From positions 1-31,140 of IMG/VR virus record IMGVR_UViG_3300032668_000097: a stretch of 31,140 bases of DNA. One strand, given 5' to 3'. The notes beneath the pieces were generated by a model that saw only the letters and a list, made by a program, of their open reading frames with translations, searched no databases and was not told the origin of the DNA. The position numbers and the translations under genes were made by a program. This DNA comes from a virus. How positions within the stretch are numbered: the first letter of the stretch is position 1; each line of letters begins with the position of its first letter. Below, in pieces: positions 556 through 29,076 of the stretch.

Positions 556-1908
556 CTATATAGCGTGTATGGTAAATGTTTTCTTTTTAGGTATTCCATG
601 AACAGCACCTATGATGTCCTTACGATCATCAGCTTGTGGTCCATCGATAAAATAAGGAATAGTTCCAGTTAATAATTCCCATCCAGCCATAAAGAAAGGA
701 ATGTTGTCTGAATAAGCATTGTTACAAGCTAAATCCCACATATCACCTTCAAGGAACATACAAGAGCCTTGGCAGATTTGTAACACAGGGCAATTAGGGC
801 AATCTTTACGATGGCTCCAGTGTGTGCTTGTATTTAATTTAATGTTTTCAAAGTCAGATATATGTCCAATTAAATGACTTTTACCATTAAAACTTGTAGC
901 TACATTAGAAGCATTTTGACAAGTTAATACATTGCCTTTTAAATCTACTGCAAGCTTACTAGGATCATCCATACCGCATTTTTGTCCTAGTGATGAAGCA
1001 GGTCTTTTGTTTAAGATTGAGTTAACAAATCCTTTGACTTTAGTATTTAAAATATCAAAGTTCTGTGCTTCACCTTTACGTATTTCATTAAAGGAATTGT
1101 TTCTAAATTCTATATGATCAGCTTGATCTGACATACAAACAGCTTTACCGCCTTCATCATAAGGATCAATAAATGCACCTTCACCAATAGGTACATCAAA
1201 TCCTAAACGATCTTTAAACCATTTACTTATTGCAGAACGGCTTGGATTATCTTTATGGATCATGGCATTAAAACTCATACGGCCTTTAGGACCTAATCTA
1301 TTCCATAAATCCATAATCATTGCAAATTGTTCTGGGTTATCAAATGGATCAACGCCTCTTACATGATAACCTGGACCATCATGAGAAACACCCACACCAA
1401 AGTTCATTTCATCTAGCCATTGGTTTTTTTCTAAATCTAATATTGTGCCATTAGTAACAATATTAAATTGAGCATTAGGATATAAAGCTCTAATGCCCTC
1501 AGCTAAAGGTTTTAATGTTTTCCAATACACAAAGGGTTCACCACCCCAAAACTCTACTCTTAGATCTGACCCATCACCCTTTAACCAAGTAGGTAATGTT
1601 TCTAAAAATGGAGCTACATCGTCTTTTGTGGTTTCATCAGCATGAGGTACAAAACGTTGATTGCAATATGTACACTCATAATTACAAGATAAACCTAATT
1701 GTATTTTAAGTACTTGAATATCTTTATTTTTGCCTGCAGGTGAGTCAACACTTGTTTTAACAGGGAAATCTTTATATTCTTGTGCTGGTCTTCCAAAGTC
1801 AATAATTGTACCTTGTTCGTCAAATACCATAGAAGACATATTGTCATACCAAAAAACTTTTTGTTCGTTGGTAATAGGTTTAATTGCCGTAATTCTAAAT
1901 TTAGCCAT
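556..1908 (-). CDS. radical SAM/SPASM protein, putative peptide-maturing enzyme
   Basis: This 450-residue protein has the radical SAM motif CxxxCxxC at Cys75, 79 and 82 (SCNYECTYC), which binds the SAM-cleaving [4Fe-4S] cluster, and the SAM-binding GGEP motif at 122-125. A complete SPASM C-terminus follows: Cys311-x13-G-x4-Cys330, then Cys370-x2-Cys373-x5-Cys379-x3-Cys383 and Cys395, seven cysteines for two auxiliary clusters. This architecture belongs to anaerobic sulfatase-maturating enzymes and to RiPP maturases that install thioether or C-C crosslinks on peptides. No sulfatase is present. Residues 1-65 precede the core and could contact substrate. The gene overlaps the 2OG-oxygenase-like gene by one base (TAATG) and lies about 1.4 kb downstream of three Cys-tailed proteins in the same gene string. 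Fold and clusters are well supported; the substrate is inferred. Confidence 0.88.
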   Translation of the reverse strand: MAKFRITAIKPITNEQKVFWYDNMSSMVFDEQGTIIDFGRPAQEYKDFPVKTSVDSPAGKNKDIQVLKIQLGLSCNYECTYCNQRFVPHADETTKDDVAPFLETLPTWLKGDGSDLRVEFWGGEPFVYWKTLKPLAEGIRALYPNAQFNIVTNGTILDLEKNQWLDEMNFGVGVSHDGPGYHVRGVDPFDNPEQFAMIMDLWNRLGPKGRMSFNAMIHKDNPSRSAISKWFKDRLGFDVPIGEGAFIDPYDEGGKAVCMSDQADHIEFRNNSFNEIRKGEAQNFDILNTKVKGFVNSILNKRPASSLGQKCGMDDPSKLAVDLKGNVLTCQNASNVATSFNGKSHLIGHISDFENIKLNTSTHWSHRKDCPNCPVLQICQGSCMFLEGDMWDLACNNAYSDNIPFFMAGWELLTGTIPYFIDGPQADDRKDIIGAVHGIPKKKTFTIHAI

Positions 1909-2549
1909 TATAGAGTAGCGTAATTTCTTACTGTTTCTTTTACCTTGATATTGGTAACAAGGGCTATCGTATCTACCCTTCCTAAATTAATCTCGGATGT
2001 ATGAAAAAGATATGAAGGATGTATTAAAAAAGTACCAGGCACAGGGCTTACTTCATGCATGACTGAGTGATTTAAAAATCTACTTCTCATAGCTATAGGA
2101 TCAATGATATGCAATCTGCTGCCTGCTGGTTTTTGATGTGTATTATTGCCAGGGAAGTCAGTAACATCAATATGGCACCATAATACTGCTACATAATCTA
2201 CACTTCTATGTACATGGGTTTTAGCAAATTCACCAGGACCAAACTTTCTTAAAGCTGTTGTGGCTTCAAATTCTACATTTTCTGGATCATAAAAGTTTTC
2301 TGCTTTTGCCATTTCAATCATGCGTGATTTAAGCATTTGTTTAAATTTTTGACATGATTCTCTATCATCTAACAATAAGTTATAAGATACTTCTGGAGAT
2401 TTACGCATAGCTACAGGAACATGAGCTTCAGGTCTTGATGCCTCATATTCAAATCCAATATTAATTAAATCAGTTAAAAATTCTTGTGTTACTTCAGGTG
2501 CTATTGGCTCATAAATGATATTAGTTGCCCATAGTTTTAATAAGCTCAT
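1908..2549 (-). CDS. putative 2OG-Fe(II) oxygenase-like protein (TIGR02466-like)
   Basis: The 213-residue product resembles the small putative 2OG-Fe(II) oxygenases grouped as TIGR02466. The central part has THVHRSVDYVAVLWCHID (His112, His114, then a beta strand), and the C-terminal part has PGTFLIHPSYLFHTSEIN followed by R191, as expected for the distal iron-binding His (His183) and the 2OG-binding Arg. A textbook HxD/E pair is not obvious; the acidic ligand could be Asp118, or the site may be altered. The stop overlaps the radical SAM start by one base, so the two enzymes are probably made together. If active, it would hydroxylate a protein or small substrate; the neighbouring fibre-like proteins are the obvious candidates, by inference. 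A different, canonical 2OG oxygenase lies at 28573-29076. Confidence 0.6.
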   Translation of the reverse strand: MSLLKLWATNIIYEPIAPEVTQEFLTDLINIGFEYEASRPEAHVPVAMRKSPEVSYNLLLDDRESCQKFKQMLKSRMIEMAKAENFYDPENVEFEATTALRKFGPGEFAKTHVHRSVDYVAVLWCHIDVTDFPGNNTHQKPAGSRLHIIDPIAMRSRFLNHSVMHEVSPVPGTFLIHPSYLFHTSEINLGRVDTIALVTNIKVKETVRNYATL

Positions 2550-2557
2550 TTAAATTC

Positions 2558-3325
2558 CTATACAAGCGTTACAGTTTTTGTAGATACTCCAGCCCAATAT
2601 TTATAGCCCATTTTAATGGTAACTACTTCACCTGCATTTAAGCCTTGTGTATTTAATTGGAATGTTTGTCCATTTATAGCACGACTTCTATTTAATACGC
2701 CATTATCTGCTGAAAGAAATACAGTAGTGTTTTTAGGAGCATTGACTGTATAAGTTGTAGATTGACCAGCTGTTAAACTAGATTCACCTGCAAGTGATAC
2801 AGGTAACCAAGCATCAAGGTAATTTTTCATTGATGTAATAGATAAAGCAGATGGTGTTGAACCATTTACTGTAACAGAAGCATTTGGAGAATCACGATAC
2901 ACTATAGTGATTTCATCTATTGTACAGTTTGCTGAAGGAGTTAAAATGTATAAAAATGCATAAGAACCATAATTGTTACTAATGACAGAAAATGGACTTC
3001 CTGATAATTGTTTACCTTCTGTAGTAGGTACGCTTGTATATGTTTCGTTAGGATTGACTCTATTCGGAAATGAGAGTTGTGTAGTTTCAACCATTTGAAT
3101 AGGTGTATCACTTTTCCATAAAGATTCTGGATAAAATGCTATACATCCATGATCTTGGCCATATTTAGAAACAATATTAGACAAACTAAAAGTGCCTGAA
3201 AAATTAATATCAGCAATACTTTGTGAGTTTGTTGTATCGGTGATTGATATAGTTAGAGTATCACCTGAAATACTAATCTCATTTTTTGTGATAGTTCTAT
3301 TTGTTGTTAGCTTTAAAAATTCCAT
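2558..3325 (-). CDS. beta-rich putative tail/adhesin protein
   Basis: The 255-residue protein is rich in Ser, Thr, Asn and Val with alternating beta-strand patterns and no membrane segment or signal peptide. The last 75 residues (from AGESSLTAGQSTTYTV) look like an Ig-like beta-sandwich, as in phage adhesins and fibres. It has two isolated cysteines (in DHGCIAF and SANCTID) and no Cys tail. It lies between the three Cys-tailed proteins and the two modifying enzymes, with gaps of about 10 bases on both sides, so it belongs to the same transcript. It could be a receptor-binding or accessory fibre protein, or a partner of the Cys-tailed proteins. The structural class is inferred from composition and context only. 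Confidence 0.6.
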   Translation of the reverse strand: MEFLKLTTNRTITKNEISISGDTLTISITDTTNSQSIADINFSGTFSLSNIVSKYGQDHGCIAFYPESLWKSDTPIQMVETTQLSFPNRVNPNETYTSVPTTEGKQLSGSPFSVISNNYGSYAFLYILTPSANCTIDEITIVYRDSPNASVTVNGSTPSALSITSMKNYLDAWLPVSLAGESSLTAGQSTTYTVNAPKNTTVFLSADNGVLNRSRAINGQTFQLNTQGLNAGEVVTIKMGYKYWAGVSTKTVTLV

Positions 3326-3336
3326 ATATTATCCTT

Positions 3337-3618
3337 TTAACAATTACATCTACAATTACAATTATTCGTTCCTATTCCATATACGCCACCACCAGTATCA
3401 TACCAATACCAAGCACCAAATGGAAGATTACCACCATTACCGCAGTTTCCTACACTAAAATTACTTATGCTTAATGCACCTGCATAATTACCTAAATCAT
3501 TAGTATACTGACTTAGTTTGGTTGGTCTTCCTGCCACTTGTGTCCATGCAAAAGTTGAGCTTGATAATGTAGTTCCATCACCAAAAACTATACTACCATT
3601 TGTGAGCTGCGTTGACAT
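3337..3618 (-). CDS. small fibre-like protein with C-terminal alternating Cys tail, copy 3
   Basis: This 93-residue protein is the last of three tandem paralogues. The N-terminal block MSTQLTNGSIVFGDGTTLSS and the block PTKLSQYTNDLGNY are shared with the other two copies; the NG...F.D..L pattern also occurs at the start of the fibre protein encoded at 6285-7247. The middle (residues 55-85) is Gly/Trp/Tyr-rich and differs from the other copies, with an extra Cys59. The protein ends TNNCNCRCNC, Cys at 87, 89, 91 and 93, with the stop codon directly after the last Cys. I infer a virion-attached N-terminal part and an exposed Cys tail that could bind metal, form disulfides, or be crosslinked by the SPASM enzyme downstream. 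Function unknown. Confidence 0.82.
   Translation of the reverse strand: MSTQLTNGSIVFGDGTTLSSSTFAWTQVAGRPTKLSQYTNDLGNYAGALSISNFSVGNCGNGGNLPFGAWYWYDTGGGVYGIGTNNCNCRCNC
3340..3363 (-). repeat. Cys-tail coding hexamers (copy 3)
   Basis: Eight codons encoding NCNCRCNC directly before the stop at 3337-3339. The units are mostly AAT-TGT. Confidence 0.75.
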
Positions 3619-3627
3619 AGATAACCT

Positions 3628-3912
3628 TTAGCAATTACACTGACAATTACAATTTGGAGAATATGGATATAATGTAGATCCATTCCATCCTACAAGTATT
3701 TGTGCATCAGATGGGGAACTACTATTCCAATAAGCTACTGTAGTAGTATCTATATTGCTTGCTGTTAACCAACCACCATAATTACCCAAATCATTGGTAA
3801 ATTGACTTAATAAAGTTGGAACACCAGTAATAGAGCCTTGAGCAACTGTATTAGTGCTTAGTGTGGTACTGTCTCCAAATACAACTGATCCATTTGTTAA
3901 TTGCGTTGACAT
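3628..3912 (-). CDS. small fibre-like protein with C-terminal alternating Cys tail, copy 2
   Basis: This 94-residue paralogue starts MSTQLTNGSVVFGDSTTLST, nearly identical to copy 3, and keeps PTLLSQFTNDLGNY. The middle is divergent and has no cysteine. It ends YSPNCNCQCNC with Cys at 88, 90, 92 and 94 and the stop immediately after. The tail residue between the second and third Cys is Gln here, Arg in copy 3 and Tyr in copy 1, so the C-x-C spacing is kept while one intervening residue varies. The gaps to the neighbouring genes are 9-10 bases, consistent with one polycistronic message. The pattern of a conserved anchor, a variable middle and a conserved Cys tail suggests diversified surface proteins that share one kind of tail processing (inference). 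Confidence 0.82.
   Translation of the reverse strand: MSTQLTNGSVVFGDSTTLSTNTVAQGSITGVPTLLSQFTNDLGNYGGWLTASNIDTTTVAYWNSSSPSDAQILVGWNGSTLYPYSPNCNCQCNC
3631..3654 (-). repeat. Cys-tail coding hexamers (copy 2)
   Basis: Eight codons encoding NCNCQCNC directly before the stop at 3628-3630. The final Cys codon is TGC rather than TGT, and Gln is CAG, so the repeat is not a perfect microsatellite. Confidence 0.75.
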
Positions 3913-3922
3913 TTATTTTCCT

Positions 3923-4192
3923 TTAGCAATTACAATAACAATTACAATTACAATTAGATACTTGCAAACCAATTTGAGATCCATTCCAAGTAAAATTAAC
4001 ATGAGGATTGGATGCTCCACCTACACCACTAGTATTTACACTTGTAACCCAATTTTCATAGTTACCTAAATCATTAGTGAATTGACTCAATTTTGTACTT
4101 GGGTTTGTAACATTTGCATAGGGCAAATTAGCACTAGATAATGAGGTGCCATCTCCAAAAGTTACATTACCATTACCAATATTTGCTGACAT
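3923..4192 (-). CDS. small fibre-like protein with C-terminal alternating Cys tail, copy 1
   Basis: The 89-residue first copy has the same plan: MSANIGNGNVTFGDGTSLSS, then PSTKLSQFTNDLGNY, a variable middle without cysteine, and a longer tail SNCNCNCYCNC with five cysteines (81, 83, 85, 87, 89) up to the stop. Its ATG overlaps the stop of the upstream fibre gene by one base (TAATG), coupling its translation to a 330-residue fibre protein. The tail is encoded by near-perfect AATTGT hexamers, so N-C units could be gained or lost by slippage without breaking the frame. That all three copies keep the frame, the spacing and the terminal Cys argues that the tail is selected. Function unknown; candidate substrate of the radical SAM/SPASM enzyme. 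Confidence 0.82.
   Translation of the reverse strand: MSANIGNGNVTFGDGTSLSSANLPYANVTNPSTKLSQFTNDLGNYENWVTSVNTSGVGGASNPHVNFTWNGSQIGLQVSNCNCNCYCNC
3926..3955 (-). repeat. Cys-tail coding hexamers (copy 1)
   Basis: Ten codons encoding NCNCNCYCNC directly before the stop at 3923-3925. This is one N-C unit longer than the other two copies, consistent with hexamer slippage or selection for length. Confidence 0.75.
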
Positions 4193-5184
4193 TATACAGT
4201 TCCGTAAGAAGTTACTGAAGCTTTAACTGTTAAATTTCCTGATGAGTCTAATTTAGCCACATTAGTGCCATTGTAATTAAAATATAAAGTTGTACCTGTA
4301 GGTGTTACTGACCAGCCACCTGGATTTGAAATAGATCCAGCTGGAGTAGCAGTAATTTGAGATACTACATAAGCAGTGGTAGCAATATTAACTGAATTAT
4401 CACCCGCAGGAGGTGTGGTGGCTACTGCACCAGCAAGTCCTGTCATAGTTGTACTTGGAGCTACTAATTGTGTATTGTTTACAGTATAAGTTCCTGTACC
4501 GCCAGAACCTGAAACAAAGCCTGTGATTTCTGTATTTGAGGATATGCCTGAGCCTGTCACACGTTGACCAATAAATATGACACCAGAGTTTACTGCGGTG
4601 ACATTTAAAGTCGTACCTGATGCACCAGATCCGTTACTAATACCACCTACAAAGGAAGCGGCTTTATAAGCACCAAGAACACCAGCGGCTAAGAAATTAC
4701 CTGTCTCAGTTACATTACCAGATACGGTTAAATTGCCATTGATTGTAAAATTACCCGCAGATCCTGTTTGTGCTGAGTAAAAACCTGTTCCTGTACCAGA
4801 TACATTATAAGCATCACAATAACATTGAGCGGTAGTTAAAGGTGGAATAACAAGAGATACTGAACCACCAGAAGCTGACATGGTGAGGTTATAGTTTGTA
4901 TTGTTGGTGATGATATAGAATTTATTGACTAAAGGAGCTATGATCGTAGAAGCAGTTGTTGGAGATCCACCTACTACAAGCACCATATTTCTAGCATCAT
5001 CAGATGTACCATTAAGGTTGGTAAGGGTATAAGTATTGGATGCTGGCATAGAAATACCATCAACACCTGTAATAGCTTGTTCTACAAGGTTCCAGTTTGT
5101 ATTGGTTGTATCACCCCATGTACCCGCTTGATCACCGTCACCGATTAGGGTTATTTTTAACGAGGTTGAGTAGGTTTCTGCCAT
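4192..5184 (-). CDS. tail fibre protein
   Basis: The 330-residue protein starts MAETYSTSLKITLIGDGDQA, followed by GTWGDTTNTNWNLVEQAITG. This N-terminal module is one I recognise from many phage tail-fibre proteins and presumably attaches to the virion or forms the trimer base. The rest is low-complexity, Gly/Ser/Thr-rich and beta-strand-like (GNFTINGNLTVSGNVTETGN and similar), typical of fibrous shafts. A good ribosome binding site (AAAGGA) lies 6-7 bases before the ATG. The gene directly precedes, and overlaps by one base, the first Cys-tailed protein, which suggests those small proteins assemble with the fibres. The receptor cannot be predicted. Confidence 0.8.
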   Translation of the reverse strand: MAETYSTSLKITLIGDGDQAGTWGDTTNTNWNLVEQAITGVDGISMPASNTYTLTNLNGTSDDARNMVLVVGGSPTTASTIIAPLVNKFYIITNNTNYNLTMSASGGSVSLVIPPLTTAQCYCDAYNVSGTGTGFYSAQTGSAGNFTINGNLTVSGNVTETGNFLAAGVLGAYKAASFVGGISNGSGASGTTLNVTAVNSGVIFIGQRVTGSGISSNTEITGFVSGSGGTGTYTVNNTQLVAPSTTMTGLAGAVATTPPAGDNSVNIATTAYVVSQITATPAGSISNPGGWSVTPTGTTLYFNYNGTNVAKLDSSGNLTVKASVTSYGTV

Positions 5185-12608: not shown

Positions 12609-13199
12609 TTAAATCACCCTAACCAAAGTATATTTATTTTTTACCTTGCCTTTATTAGCTATTAATTGTGAAATATTACCTGCAACTGTTCCAAAAAAAT
12701 CTGCTGCATATTTTTGATTCAAAAATGATATGGCAAGCTCTTTACAATATACTGGTTTCCATTTTGCTTTTGCAGTTTTAGCAATATCATCTTGAGATTT
12801 TTTACGACCTATATTTGCTTTTCCCCATTTACTTCTAATTACAGGATCTTGCAATGTTTTCTTTAAAGATATGCTACGTTTAATAACAACTTCTTTAGGT
12901 GGAATATATCCTTTAACTCCAGATCCACCTTTAGTCATATTATAAACTGGTTTAAACTCTTCTATAAGTAATTTTTCAGCTTGATGCAACGACTCTTCAT
13001 CAAAAGCATAAAATATCTCATCAAATACAAAGCTTTCAAACTTATATTTGTTAAGTGCTTCTGAAAATTTAGTCTTATATGTTTTCATTGAGCATTTATG
13101 ATTGGTAATTCTTTTCTTTATATTTTGACAAGTTTGACCGATATATTGTTCACCAGTAATCTTGTTGGTACAAAGATAAATAATACCAAATCTATTCAT
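12609..13199 (-). CDS. free-standing GIY-YIG homing endonuclease
   Basis: This 196-residue enzyme has the GIY-YIG core at its start: GIIYLCTN (residues 4-11) and EQYIGQT (17-23), with the expected R30 after KK and a Glu in the KLLIEEFKPVYNMT block (about residues 87-100). The C-terminal part is basic, with short DNA-binding units (KRSISLKKTLQDP, IGRKKSQDDIAK) like NUMOD3 modules and a final helix-turn-helix-like segment (NQKYAADFFGTVAGNISQLI). Family role: cuts a specific phage DNA site and spreads by repair copying. The start overlaps the upstream stop by one base (TAATG), so it has settled into the operon. No interrupted host gene is visible. A second partial GIY-YIG gene is at 1-76. Confidence 0.9.
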   Translation of the reverse strand: MNRFGIIYLCTNKITGEQYIGQTCQNIKKRITNHKCSMKTYKTKFSEALNKYKFESFVFDEIFYAFDEESLHQAEKLLIEEFKPVYNMTKGGSGVKGYIPPKEVVIKRSISLKKTLQDPVIRSKWGKANIGRKKSQDDIAKTAKAKWKPVYCKELAISFLNQKYAADFFGTVAGNISQLIANKGKVKNKYTLVRVI

Positions 13200-15371: not shown

Positions 15372-15572
15372 TTACTTAGAGTAACCGCCACCACACATTT
15401 TTTCAACGATTTCATGGTGATGTTTGTGACCATGCATACCGCCATCGTGGTGTTTTAAGTGTTTTTCAACGTGTTCATGGTGATGAATATGACCGCCATG
15501 TGCGTGATGACCATCGTGATGCTTCATATGGTCTGCTACGTGTTCGTGATGATGTTTGTGACCGTGTTTCAT
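15372..15572 (-). CDS. extremely histidine-rich small protein (66 aa)
   Basis: Of 66 residues, 25 are histidine. Three repeats of about 21 residues are visible: HGHKHHHEHVADHMKHHDGH, HGGHIHHHEHVEKHLKHHDG and HGHKHHHEIVEKMCGGGYSK. A strong AAGGAG lies 6-7 bases before the ATG, so it is well translated. Family knowledge: such His-rich repeats usually bind Ni, Zn, Cu or Co ions, or act as pH-sensitive switches. It has one Cys near the C-terminus. It lies among Lys/Gly-rich small proteins of the structural module, so it may be packaged with DNA or buffer metal during assembly (inference). Confidence 0.75.
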   Translation of the reverse strand: MKHGHKHHHEHVADHMKHHDGHHAHGGHIHHHEHVEKHLKHHDGGMHGHKHHHEIVEKMCGGGYSK

Positions 15573-18751: not shown

Positions 18752-18890
18752 AATATATCCTTATGCAAAAGTCCTCTTATCAATCATTGCATTGTCTGCT
18801 GGGGCAGTCCGATAAGAGTAATCACCCAGATATAATATTCTTGCATAAAATGCTTGAAATTGCAACAAATATCTATTAATATTGCAAACT
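18752..18890. promoter_or_regulatory. divergent intergenic region with putative promoters
   Basis: This is the longest non-coding stretch in the window and lies between divergent genes, so it must drive both the plus-strand glycosylation island and the second minus-strand structural unit. A TATAAT (18831-18836) is a good -10 for plus-strand transcription but has no clear TTGACA at the usual spacing. A second pair, TTGAAA (18854-18859) with TAATAT (18877-18882), has 17-base spacing but would give an almost leaderless message. On the minus strand TATTAT (around 18833-18838) is a possible -10. A small inverted repeat gcat-aaa-atgc (18843-18853) may be an operator. Promoter positions are tentative. 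Confidence 0.55.
18774..18818. repeat. nested inverted repeat in the divergent region
   Basis: Perfect 8-base arms CTCTTATC (18774-18781) and GATAAGAG (18811-18818) enclose 29 bases that hold a second small hairpin, CTGC-TGGG-GCAG. Transcribed leftward, it would form a structured 5' leader of the MARST gene, ending 22 bases before its start. It lacks a U-tract, so it is not a simple terminator. It may be an RNA stability or control element, or a protein-binding site. Confidence 0.6.
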
Positions 18891-20465
18891 ATGAGAGCAT
18901 ATCCAGAGCAGGTTTTACACCAATATAATCAAGCATTTTCCTTGAAATTACAAGGTAAAGTCCAAGAAGCATTAACTCAATGTGAGTCTATTTTAAAGAT
19001 TCATCCAACTTATTCTTTAGCCCTTCAGCTCATAGGCATAATATTTGCAGAAGTCAAGAACTATCCCATGTCTTTAGAATACTTTACAAGAGCCATGAAG
19101 CATGATAGGAAGAATGCGGCTATTTATAGTAATCGTGGCAATGTTTACCAAGATACCAAACAATATGACTTGGCTTTAGCTGATTTTGATCGTGCCATAA
19201 GTATCAAAAGAGACTTTGTTGAGGCTCATTATAATAAAGGCAATTGTTGTAAAGAGATGAATCAATATGAAAAAGCTATAGAATGCTACAAAAGAACACT
19301 AGTCTTTAATCCAAAATACAAGGATGCCTATACAAATATGGGTACTTGTTATCAAAATTTACAACAGTTTGATAAGTCAGTTGAATGTTACGATAAGACG
19401 ATTGAGATCAATCCACAAGACTGGATGGCTTATAACAATAAAGGTTATGCATTACATGTATTAATGAACCTAGACGAGTCTATTAAAACATATGATCAAG
19501 CTATATCATCTAATCCAGATAACCCAGATCCTAAGTTTAATAAAGGACTTGTAGAGCTTTTAAAGGGTGATTGGGAAAAAGGTTGGGAAGGACATGAAGT
19601 TAGATGGACTAATCGTTTTTCTCCAGTTAAATTGCCTAAACTTTGGAAGGGTGAGGATCTAACAGATAAAACAATCTTTATTCATCACGAACAAGGTATT
19701 GGTGATACGATCCAATTCTGTCGTTATCTTAAGCTTTTAAAAGCTAAAAAGATTATTGTAGCTGTTAAGCCAGAAGCTTTTGCCTTATTAAAATCCATGC
19801 CTGAAATAGATGAGATCTATGATGACTTATCTAAAGTAAATGAGAATGATTATCATTATCAATCACCATTTATGTCATTGCCTTATATATTTAAAACAAG
19901 ACCTAACAACATTCCGCATGATGTTCCTTATCTATTTGCACCAGAAGATCGTGTAGCTTATTGGAAAGATAAGTTAAAGGATGATAAGAAGTTTAAAGTA
20001 GGACTTGTATGGTCTGGTGGATTTAGAGCAGATCAGCCAGAATTATGGGCTGTTAATAATAGACGTAATGTTCCATTAGATAAGTTAGCTTCATTCCAAA
20101 ATGAAAACATATCATTTTACAGTTTACAAAAAGGTGAGTTTGCTGAAGCTGAATTAAAGAACTCTAAAGTATGGAATATGATTGATTATACTTCTGAGTT
20201 ACAAGACTTCTCAGATACTGCTGCATTGATTGAAAATCTTGATCTTATAATCTCTGTAGATACATCGACTGCACACGTAGCTGGTGCTCTAAACAAACCT
20301 GTATGGATGATGAATCGATTTGACACATGCTGGAGATGGTTAACAGAAGGCAACAAAACAGATTGGTATCCAAGTATGACTATCTATAGACAGAATAGTT
20401 TCAACAATTGGTATAACGTGATTAACAATATTGCAATAGACCTACATGCACTTTCCAGAAGATAA
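18891..20465 (+). CDS. TPR-repeat glycosyltransferase (GT9/GT41-like)
   Basis: The product is about 524 residues. The N-terminal half has six to seven TPR units with the consensus YNKGN...YDLALADFDRAI (AIYSNRGNVYQDTKQYDLAL, AHYNKGNCCKEMNQYEKAIE and others). The C-terminal half is a glycosyltransferase fold with GIGDTIQFCRYLKLL, KVGLVWSGG, a SLQKGE strand and DTAALIENLDLIISVDTSTAHVA split over the nucleotide-binding region, as in TPR-linked GT9/GT41-like proteins. It probably transfers a sugar from a nucleotide donor to a protein or glycan; the TPRs would bind the partner. I chose ATG 18891; an in-frame TTG at 18882 is possible, and neither has a clear ribosome site. It is the first gene of the plus-strand island. 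Confidence 0.82.
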   Translation: MRAYPEQVLHQYNQAFSLKLQGKVQEALTQCESILKIHPTYSLALQLIGIIFAEVKNYPMSLEYFTRAMKHDRKNAAIYSNRGNVYQDTKQYDLALADFDRAISIKRDFVEAHYNKGNCCKEMNQYEKAIECYKRTLVFNPKYKDAYTNMGTCYQNLQQFDKSVECYDKTIEINPQDWMAYNNKGYALHVLMNLDESIKTYDQAISSNPDNPDPKFNKGLVELLKGDWEKGWEGHEVRWTNRFSPVKLPKLWKGEDLTDKTIFIHHEQGIGDTIQFCRYLKLLKAKKIIVAVKPEAFALLKSMPEIDEIYDDLSKVNENDYHYQSPFMSLPYIFKTRPNNIPHDVPYLFAPEDRVAYWKDKLKDDKKFKVGLVWSGGFRADQPELWAVNNRRNVPLDKLASFQNENISFYSLQKGEFAEAELKNSKVWNMIDYTSELQDFSDTAALIENLDLIISVDTSTAHVAGALNKPVWMMNRFDTCWRWLTEGNKTDWYPSMTIYRQNSFNNWYNVINNIAIDLHALSRR

Positions 20466-21204
20466 TCTTTACCTTGTAGATGGAGGTATTGGAGACTTCC
20501 TCCAATTTGTGCCATTTATGCTTCAATATAAGCGTAGATACTTTGTTTTAACGCATTTTAAAGGTGCTAAAGAGCTTATGTTAGCTTTAAATGTCATGCC
20601 TGATACGTTAATGTATTACTCTACAGAACCTGAAAAAGTAGAGAAAATTAAACAAATTGCACTCCATAATACCATCAATCAATGTCCAAGACATTTTTAC
20701 TTCTACGGTAATCCATTCCCAAAACAAAAGCCATTATTTGATAATGATAAAAAGACTATTGGTGTTCATCTAAATGGAAGTAAGTTCTCTTTAGAATGGC
20801 AAATAGCCCATAATATGATTACTAAATCTATTCCTTCAAAGATTATAGAGTCTTTTAAAGATTACAATGTGATTGTATTTGGATTGCCTGAAGACTTAGA
20901 AGGTTTAGAAGAGTCTGATCATGTGAAGTTTGTTTGTTATAAAGATATAGCCAAAAGCTTTGCTTATGTTGAACAGTGTGATTATGTGGTGGCTGCAGAT
21001 AGTTCTGTTAAAACCATGAGCTCTATGTTACGCATTCCTACATTCGTATGGATGGCAGATAACGAAGATCCATTTAGAGATAAGATCTTTATTGATCAAT
21101 ATGTCAAAGATGGCATTATGAAAACATTCAAATATAAAAATGCTTTTGATGATATGGATGAAGGCATCAAGCAAACCATGGAGTTTTTAAATGAATCCAA
21201 ATAA
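20446..21204 (+). CDS. GT9-like (heptosyltransferase-type) glycosyltransferase
   Basis: The 252-residue protein starts MHFPEDNLYLVDGGIGDFLQ; the GGIGDFLQF motif (13-21) is the N-terminal signature of ADP-heptose:LPS-type transferases. The C-terminal half has IGVHLNGSKFSLEWQIAH, YNVIVFGLPEDLEG and YVVAADSSVKTMSSMLRIPT, the donor-binding strand-loop-helix with a conserved D-S-S. It is shorter than cellular heptosyltransferases (about 320-350), so it is minimal or acts with the neighbouring transferase. It overlaps the TPR gene by 20 bases and the FkbM gene by 14 bases, so all three are co-translated. The acceptor could be host LPS or a virion protein. Confidence 0.75.
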   Translation: MHFPEDNLYLVDGGIGDFLQFVPFMLQYKRRYFVLTHFKGAKELMLALNVMPDTLMYYSTEPEKVEKIKQIALHNTINQCPRHFYFYGNPFPKQKPLFDNDKKTIGVHLNGSKFSLEWQIAHNMITKSIPSKIIESFKDYNVIVFGLPEDLEGLEESDHVKFVCYKDIAKSFAYVEQCDYVVAADSSVKTMSSMLRIPTFVWMADNEDPFRDKIFIDQYVKDGIMKTFKYKNAFDDMDEGIKQTMEFLNESK

Positions 21205-21928
21205 AGTAGTTAATTCACAATATGGTCAAATCATCATAAATACAAACGATAAGGGAGTTGGAGCTTCTATATCTGAAGGATCATATTTTGAGCCTGAAAA
21301 TATAAACATTATGATTGGAGTGATCAACACACTTCTACAAAGAAAAGACAAAATTACATTCTATGATGTAGGTGCTAACATTGGAACACATACGTTAGCC
21401 ATAGCTAGTACATTCAAAAATAAAGTATTTATAAGATCATTTGAAGCTCAAAGACAAGTTTATTATATGTTATGCGGAACTATTGCTTTAAATGGATTAC
21501 GCAATGTATATGCTCACCATTGTGCCGTTGGTGGCTATTATGGTTTGATTGATATTGATTTACCAGATTACAATGTAAGACAAAACTTTGGTGGTCTTGA
21601 GATTAAAGAGATAGATAAATCAGATAATCAAGATATGATTTTTAATAGTTCAGAAAACATTGAAATGATGAGATTAGATCAGTTTCATGAACCTATTGAT
21701 TTCATCAAAATGGATATTGAGGGAATGGAGGAAGAGGCTTTATTTAGATCCTCGCTTATGCTTGAGGAGTATATGCCTGTTTGCTACGTGGAAATATTTA
21801 AATCTAATCAAGATCGCATTTTTAGCTTCTTTAAAAGCCTTGGCTATAAATGCTATTCAAATGGTCAAGATATGCTTGCTATGCCGACTGGCATGGATGT
21901 AACTATTCTAAATTTTAATCCTGTATAA
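21191..21928 (+). CDS. FkbM family SAM-dependent methyltransferase
   Basis: The 245-residue protein has the methyltransferase motif I FYDVGANIG (57-65), an acidic post-motif at FEAQ (84-87), and DFIKMDIEGMEEEAL (170-184), the FkbM signature. FkbM enzymes O-methylate sugars or polyketides; next to two glycosyltransferases, methylation of a sugar is most likely. The gene overlaps the preceding one by 14 bases and its stop is directly followed by a hairpin (21930-21948). Such cassettes in aquatic phages are thought to alter surface glycans. Target unproven. Confidence 0.85.
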   Translation: MNPNKVVNSQYGQIIINTNDKGVGASISEGSYFEPENINIMIGVINTLLQRKDKITFYDVGANIGTHTLAIASTFKNKVFIRSFEAQRQVYYMLCGTIALNGLRNVYAHHCAVGGYYGLIDIDLPDYNVRQNFGGLEIKEIDKSDNQDMIFNSSENIEMMRLDQFHEPIDFIKMDIEGMEEEALFRSSLMLEEYMPVCYVEIFKSNQDRIFSFFKSLGYKCYSNGQDMLAMPTGMDVTILNFNPV

Positions 21929-28572: not shown

Positions 28573-29076
28573 TTATCTAAATGCGGGTCCCATAGCCCAA
28601 GCCACCGCTGTAAATCTCTCACCAGAGGTAACAGCAGTCACTCGATGTGGTAACACCGATGGAAAAACGATAATACTTCCCTTAGGAAGTTTTGGAATTG
28701 GAGAGTCCAAGTCCTTTAGTTCTAGTAAGCCACCTTCATAATCATCTGGGTTTGACAGAATAAGTATTGAGGAGAGTTTGCGTTGATTGCCAAACTCGTC
28801 TGGATTGTAAGAGTCACTATGCCAATCATAGTGGCCACCTACTTTATAATGTCCGATCTGGACTGGTTCTATATAAGATGTTGCATAATTCCAATTTGCT
28901 TGGATATTGGCAAGTCCTATATAACTCTGCATTATACATCCAACTGGCTCCATTGGGTTAACAAATACAATATTTGTTTGACGTTTGTCTGGATTTATGT
29001 ATGTTTCATTTGCATGCATAAAACCACCGTCTTTACCTTTAGACCAGTCAATTTCTTTTAGGATAAGATCACACAT
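28573..29076 (-). CDS. 2OG-Fe(II) dioxygenase, PKHD/P4H type, start uncertain
   Basis: The 167-residue protein has the iron motif HxD at His86-Ser-Asp88 (YDWHSDSY), distal His144 (LPHRVTAV) and the 2OG-binding Arg154 (ERFTAVAW), so all catalytic residues are present. PKHD enzymes hydroxylate prolines or other residues in proteins and are frequent in marine phages. The reading frame stays open upstream of ATG 29076 and encodes TRVWWQERIISED, which fits the usual N-terminus of this family. No ATG, GTG or TTG lies between the TAG at 29130-29128 and ATG 29076, only ATT codons, one of which (29121) would overlap the terminase stop. Substrate unknown. Confidence 0.87.
   Translation of the reverse strand: MCDLILKEIDWSKGKDGGFMHANETYINPDKRQTNIVFVNPMEPVGCIMQSYIGLANIQANWNYATSYIEPVQIGHYKVGGHYDWHSDSYNPDEFGNQRKLSSILILSNPDDYEGGLLELKDLDSPIPKLPKGSIIVFPSVLPHRVTAVTSGERFTAVAWAMGPAFR

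Follow-up and report, generated by a model that had tools for sequence, protein, structure and literature searches.

A phage gene module that links cysteine-tailed fibre proteins with a SPASM radical SAM enzyme, a candidate system for the maturation of fibre tips

We describe a group of genes in a 31,140-bp linear IMG/VR virus record (IMGVR_UViG_3300032668_000097, analysed over its whole length and referred to hereafter as the window), in which several fibre-like genes stand in a row and a terminase, a portal and a major head protein are also encoded. Three small proteins ending in alternating cysteines are encoded here ahead of a radical S-adenosylmethionine (radical SAM) enzyme with a SPASM domain, and comparison of the locus with its relatives in phages and prophages establishes, at the level of sequence, a conserved module that strictly links cysteine-tailed fibres with one SPASM family. 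The same comparison establishes the gene anatomy, the complete catalytic motifs, the fibre character of the tailed homologues and the position of self-cleaving domains relative to the tails. Our preferred reading, which we consider quite likely, is that this late-region enzyme modifies the cysteine-rich extreme C-terminus of phage fibre or appendage proteins and that the genes form a virion-maturation module. That the cysteine tail is the substrate of the enzyme seems very likely; that the product is a thioether, which the cluster ligand pattern and the Asn/Ala/Asp acceptors favour, has about even odds, and a role of the tip in adsorption or stability is a similarly balanced proposition.

The module genes all lie on the minus strand (-), in the order of transcription Cys-tailed fibre protein 1 (3923..4192, 89 aa), protein 2 (3628..3912, 94 aa) and protein 3 (3337..3618, 93 aa), a protein that we call BETA (2558..3325, 255 aa), a 2-oxoglutarate (2OG)-Fe(II) oxygenase-like protein (1908..2549, 213 aa) and the radical SAM/SPASM enzyme (556..1908, 450 aa). 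The three tails, each a putative modified tip, are NCNCYCNC-stop at 3923..3949, NCNCQCNC-stop at 3628..3654 and NCNCRCNC-stop at 3337..3363. An earlier account made from the letters of this DNA (the sequence-only reading) had claimed a tightly spaced gene string, and this stands: the genes are real, they are separated by gaps of 8-11 bases, and the 2OG-like and radical SAM genes overlap by one base. Its three paralogous 89-94-residue proteins ending in NCNCxCNC-stop were likewise recovered, as 3 exact matches to the pattern in the window against 0.00 expected over 100 shuffles, in proteins of 41% identity. The lipoprotein that it counted as part of the system (73-549) possesses a lipobox, and we dropped it as a module member since its family is limited to 2 of 114 loci.

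The association of tail and enzyme was evaluated in both directions. When IMG/VR was searched for NCNCxCNC-stop without reference to the enzyme, 97 stretches were obtained, 71 of them with a complete open reading frame (ORF) so ending, and the full-length records were next examined for the enzyme family, phrog_1802, at a threshold of E<1e-50. The enzyme is present in 59 of the 71 records (29/35 plus 30/36). All 12 records without it run out 72-2441 bp past the tail gene, at the point where the enzyme gene would be expected to begin. Among the 26 records that have no complete tail ORF at the locus, 4 carry the enzyme and 22 do not; at least two of these four (L003, L027) are edge-cut tails, and the record of L027 (G006) holds an intact tailed fibre. 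With the four set aside, the contrast between 59/71 and 0/22 corresponds to a Fisher p of 4.5e-13. All 74 tails that share a locus with the enzyme (74/74) lie on its strand, upstream of it and at <4 kb. In a set of 301 whole genomes from the Limnohabitans family, 5 carry the enzyme, and the 4 genuine in-frame fibre tails all fall within those 5 (hypergeometric p 1.5e-8, an optimistic value given that the prophages are related); the loose pattern NC[ND]CxCxC matched 27 of the 301 genomes, mostly through AACTGC hexamer repeats and spurious ORFs, apart from the 4 in-frame tails. Independent occurrence of tails and enzyme had been named beforehand as the outcome that would refute the proposal, and in both data sets the two are not independent. 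Together with the matches to tail-fibre PHROG families given below, this strict co-occurrence supports the core claim of the sequence-only reading, namely that a phage SPASM enzyme may modify cysteine-rich fibre C-termini.

In the reverse direction, 212 enzyme genes were reduced to 114 loci at <85% identity, 77 of which have full flanks. A CxC partner stands beside the enzyme in 71 of these 77 (69 found by filter, with L197 and L249 added by inspection), and precursor and modifying enzyme are likewise neighbours in RiPP (ribosomally synthesised and post-translationally modified peptide) systems. The six full-flank loci lacking such a partner are L214 and L254, the Variovorax loci L266 and L270, and the Bacteriovoracaceae loci L265 and L276, the last four being bacterial clusters rather than phage settings. 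The usual order across loci is CYS-BETA-2OG-rSAM, and in a tree of 110 enzymes the partner types cluster by clade. Relatives at 36-70% identity, including those in prophages of isolates and in the cultured Achromobacter phage JWF, adjoin very different fibres and have only the CxC module in common. Roseobacteraceae genomes hold several module copies each, at L251, L257, L275 (Thalassobacter), L256 (Nereida) and L254/L274 (Thalassobius); Thalassobacter stenotrophicus has 4 enzyme matches, one of them partial. A 94-aa Cys-tailed protein much like those of the window goes with the Roseobacteraceae copies, and fibre genes surround the Rhodobacteraceae copies, for which a gene transfer agent is one idea. 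At L194 (G017 15000-34692) there are four phrog_1802-like stretches. Two of them are interrupted by several in-frame stop codons, of 2 to 3 kinds, and the locus may reflect tandem copies in decay, recoding or a faulty assembly.

Apart from the module, the CxC partners are unrelated to one another and comprise tails of about 90 aa, fibres of 300-550 aa, and proteins in which a conserved Cys domain follows an N-terminus of the form MTLPSSG..ISxSxIxxExG. The 300-550-aa fibres match tail-fibre PHROGs and differ in their N-termini, one of them containing collagen repeats. Profiles of Pfam, NCBIfam and PHROG gave nothing firm on the small Cys-tailed proteins of the window, and a tblastn search of isolate phages with the 89-aa protein returned no match. 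Protein 2 does, however, share the segment VPTxLSQFTNDLGNYGG with a 364-aa tail fibre at L039 (E 1e-10), and full-length Cys-tailed homologues (L039, L010, L015, L201, L136) match tail-fibre PHROGs, so that these homologues can be placed among tail fibres whereas the small window proteins are linked to them only via the shared segment. The earlier description of the small proteins as virion-attached is thus upheld as far as the fibre matches of their homologues go, and attachment itself would follow from them by inference. The residues between the cysteines are strongly restricted: among 321 such positions 221 are Asn, 54 Ala, 21 Asp and 25 others (69% Asn, 17% Ala, 7% Asp). The tail codons, on the other hand, are mixed (TGT 149/TGC 119; AAC 119/AAT 110), and because they vary freely the constraint acts on the protein.

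Where the CxC module is internal rather than at the end of the ORF, another domain begins 0-7 residues after it. Eight loci have a Hint domain in this position, including that of Achromobacter phage JWF (...QNCNCDCNCNCS followed directly by CFPAGTMVLM), two have an S74 domain (L136, where ...ICACAC runs into SDKSLKED, and L145), and 23 distinct proteins have an unnamed domain starting with SKIIC. Inteins are known to cleave at the first Cys of the Hint domain. S74 cuts before its Ser by means of a Ser/Lys dyad (PMC3742443). Given these cut sites, the mature protein produced by the predicted cleavage would have the Cys tail at its C-terminus or no more than 2-7 residues from it. In our view, nothing points more strongly to the importance of a Cys tip at the C-terminus than the convergence of three kinds of neighbour on one position.

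The enzyme of the window is a member of phrog_1802 (E 2.9e-68) and passes the TIGR04085 SPASM model (32.7 against a cut-off of 27), with scores for all named maturase families far below their cut-offs. The complete SPASM motif reported by the sequence-only reading is confirmed as C-x13-G-x4-C ... C-x2-C-x5-C-x3-C-x11-C (C311, C330, C370, C373, C379, C383, C395), which joins the CxxxCxxC of the radical SAM domain (C75/C79/C82); all ten Cys, 3 radical SAM and 7 SPASM, are invariant in 39 aligned relatives, and a regular expression for CxxxCxxC plus the seven-Cys motif finds 106 of 110 enzymes. An AlphaFold2 (AF2) model of the enzyme (pLDDT 88.6) has as its nearest folds the anaerobic sulfatase-maturating enzyme (anSME) of the anSMEcpe entry, ChlB, CteB, TigE and SuiB. 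The first auxiliary cluster (AuxI) has three Cys ligands, an eighth Cys being found in 0/106 enzymes, and the family possesses two SPASM clusters with an apparently open AuxI site. An open AuxI with three Cys is present in CteB, with full ligation in anSME and SuiB (PMC8326336); the AuxI ligation of RumMC2 is undecided (PMC8188230). As thioether acceptors, the Asn Cbeta is used by NxxcB (PMC13361665), and the Asn and Ala Calpha by RumMC in ruminococcin C and the Asp Cbeta by PapB (PMC8172795). It is also these three residues, Asn, Ala and Asp, with which Cys alternates in the tails.

The two other genes of the string appear to be partners of differing constancy. The 2OG family occurs in 55 of 114 loci, which makes it frequent and optional; by Pfam its assignment as a 2OG oxygenase is weak, PF13759 reaching only 22.1 bits, under its cut-off of 27, but phrog_81 (E 3.4e-10) and two histidines that do not vary across 21 relatives, H112 and H183, support it. 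BETA, whose family occurs in 61 of 114 loci, lies directly downstream of the Cys-tailed gene and is the usual partner. Its model (AF2, pLDDT 89.2) comprises an N-terminal alpha/beta part and a C-terminal immunoglobulin (Ig)-like domain, for which Foldseek returned Ig-like matches with low TM-scores only and no function; the same fold is found in uncultured Caudovirales proteins. In the branch with SKIIC-type partners the enzyme is followed by several more 2OG-like proteins and by a membrane protein resembling a desaturase (L112 10649-11308 and downstream; L123 1418-2140, past the start of the enzyme), and a second, unrelated 2OG-Fe(II) oxygenase (PF13640, E 3e-15) adjoins the terminase of the window at 28573-29076 (-).

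In the mechanism that we propose, the 5'-deoxyadenosyl radical would most likely abstract hydrogen from Asn (or Ala/Asp) residues of the (N-C)n tail. The thiolate of the adjacent Cys, bound to the open auxiliary cluster, would be attached at that position, which would yield a rigid tip crosslinked by thioethers. In loci that encode it, the 2OG enzyme probably acts on these tails as well, by hydroxylation, the Ig-like BETA would be a co-encoded partner of the tip, and in relatives self-cleavage of Hint or S74 would expose the Cys tip at the C-terminus. Several points weigh against this picture. The S74 and Hint cleavages are predictions, AuxI could hold a non-Cys protein ligand, the CxC filter of the enzyme-to-partner test was chosen after the data had been seen, and the records, coming from related phages, are not independent. 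Most RiPP thioether synthases, moreover, have a winged helix resembling the RiPP recognition element (RRE), and none is found in the N-terminal 60 residues of the enzyme model.

Other functions for tail and enzyme must also be considered. The tip of T4 gp37 has HxH iron sites, and the CxC tail might be a needle that binds metal or an Fe-S cluster along a trimeric fibre, with the radical SAM enzyme in an accessory or other role. Cysteines of period two on proteins that match trimeric fibre families agree with this, as do the S74 fusions, which imply trimers (PMC3742443), and alternating Cys and Asn on a beta strand could indeed also be a metal site, which tells against modification of the tail. 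However, a metal needle leaves the constant presence of a full SPASM enzyme unexplained, and one would expect any polar residue between the cysteines rather than almost only N/A/D, so that we regard it as unlikely. The strict alternation of Cys with small N/A/D residues, together with the presence of EpeE among the fold matches of the enzyme, could instead suggest a PoyD-like epimerisation of alternate residues from L- to D-Asn/Ala, giving an alternating D,L beta-helix at the tip. In the 39 relatives the ten cluster ligands are the only invariant Cys, leaving no spare hydrogen donor of the kind that EpeE has (its C223A entries are among the fold matches), and a full two-cluster SPASM domain is not typical of epimerases; epimerisation seems to us improbable.

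Conversion of Cys to formylglycine in the manner of anSME would produce aldehyde tips able to react with the host surface, and anSMEcpe is the closest solved fold, with the homologue in Achromobacter phage JWF annotated as an anaerobic sulfatase-maturating enzyme. At the position after the second SPASM Cys that aligns with D277 of anSMEcpe, the catalytic base, 103 of 106 enzymes nevertheless have Gln, 3 have His and none has Asp, the eighth Cys needed for a fully ligated AuxI is absent, TIGR03942 gives 41 bits against a cut-off of 349, and the tails are unlike the CxPxR motif, which makes this chemistry very improbable. Finally, unexplained radical SAM cassettes in the host-recognition clusters of pelagimyophages (PMC7029224) raise the thought of an auxiliary metabolic gene that merely rides in a variable fibre region. 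Against this, its linkage to CxC persists across about 40% identity, different fibres, viruses and chromosomal prophages, and with the co-occurrence tests already contradicting it we give this explanation hardly any weight.

If the enzyme does modify the tails, its nearest counterparts would be the RiPP SPASM thioether synthases (PapB, CteB, NxxcB, RumMC), which have the same fold, a full radical SAM plus 7-Cys SPASM set and an apparently open AuxI, and which, as in the phage module, have a Cys-rich substrate next door and Asn/Ala/Asp acceptors. The window enzyme scores only 58.6 bits against the PapB model (NF047865, cut-off 340), and the phage substrate differs in being the C-terminus of a virion fibre, with no leader peptide, evident RRE or exporter. 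Because leader peptide and RRE were looked for and not found, we file the module as a variant of SPASM maturation and not as a RiPP system proper. anSME, the closest solved structure, resembles the proposed system in that its substrate is a protein and not a small peptide, but the phage enzyme has neither its catalytic Asp nor its eighth Cys. QhpD, the radical SAM maturase of quinohemoprotein amine dehydrogenase, forms Cys-Asp/Glu thioethers in a protein subunit (PMC8326336) and so likewise modifies a subunit rather than a secreted peptide; it is not a phage system, and TIGR03906 gives 43 bits against a cut-off of 453. The pelagimyophage cassettes also place radical SAM genes in a tail-fibre island, with no substrate, Cys tail or function proposed (PMC7029224), and phrog_1802, annotated as 'radical SAM domain-containing protein', includes the window enzyme without a function or a link to Cys-tailed fibres. 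The sequence-only reading knew of no described system with this layout, and we too found no description of a phage fibre/radical SAM system, in a search limited to an open-access library.

An internal clade of the enzyme tree adjoins YcaO RiPP genes. Variovorax L270 and the related L269 have relatives of the enzyme next to a YcaO protein (PF02624) and ATP-grasp-like genes. Lying between the YcaO and radical SAM genes there, a small ORF with a DCGC motif resembles a precursor; these (L269 5569-5925 and L270 5612-5827, with their neighbours) and other bacterial YcaO/ATP-grasp loci are a probable undescribed RiPP cluster. In Bacteriovorax, a PqqD-like (RRE) protein and an ABC transporter follow the enzyme (L265 7260-7592). 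Elsewhere in the window, a tail-fibre-like gene directly upstream of the Cys-tailed genes (4192..5184, -; phrog_38233 tail fiber, E 2e-8) is context outside the conserved module, a GIY-YIG homing endonuclease lies amid structural genes (12609-13199, -), and an extremely His-rich 66-aa protein (HHHEHVEKHLKHHDG...; 15372-15572, -) that might bind metal is encoded among small structural-region genes. A plus-strand island within the structural region (18882-21928) encodes a TPR/glycosyltransferase-9 protein, a DUF354-like protein and an FkbM methyltransferase.

The usual picture of a phage fibre is that of an unmodified protein with host recognition set by sequence, and a radical enzyme dedicated to the fibre tip would add a covalent maturation step. 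Many freshwater phages and prophages carry the module and probably have chemically cross-linked tips; whether this amounts to a widespread, unrecognised pathway of radical-crosslinked (thioether), partly hydroxylated adhesion-fibre tips exposed by Hint or S74 is a matter on which we put even chances. The cultured Achromobacter phage JWF and the isolates with the locus make the module directly testable. Tip maturation would explain phrog_1802 and the radical SAM cassettes of fibre islands, and it would supply enzymes that, needing no leader peptide, may stitch Cys at the C-termini of folded proteins. If true, this would be RiPP chemistry serving virion structure and not a secreted peptide.

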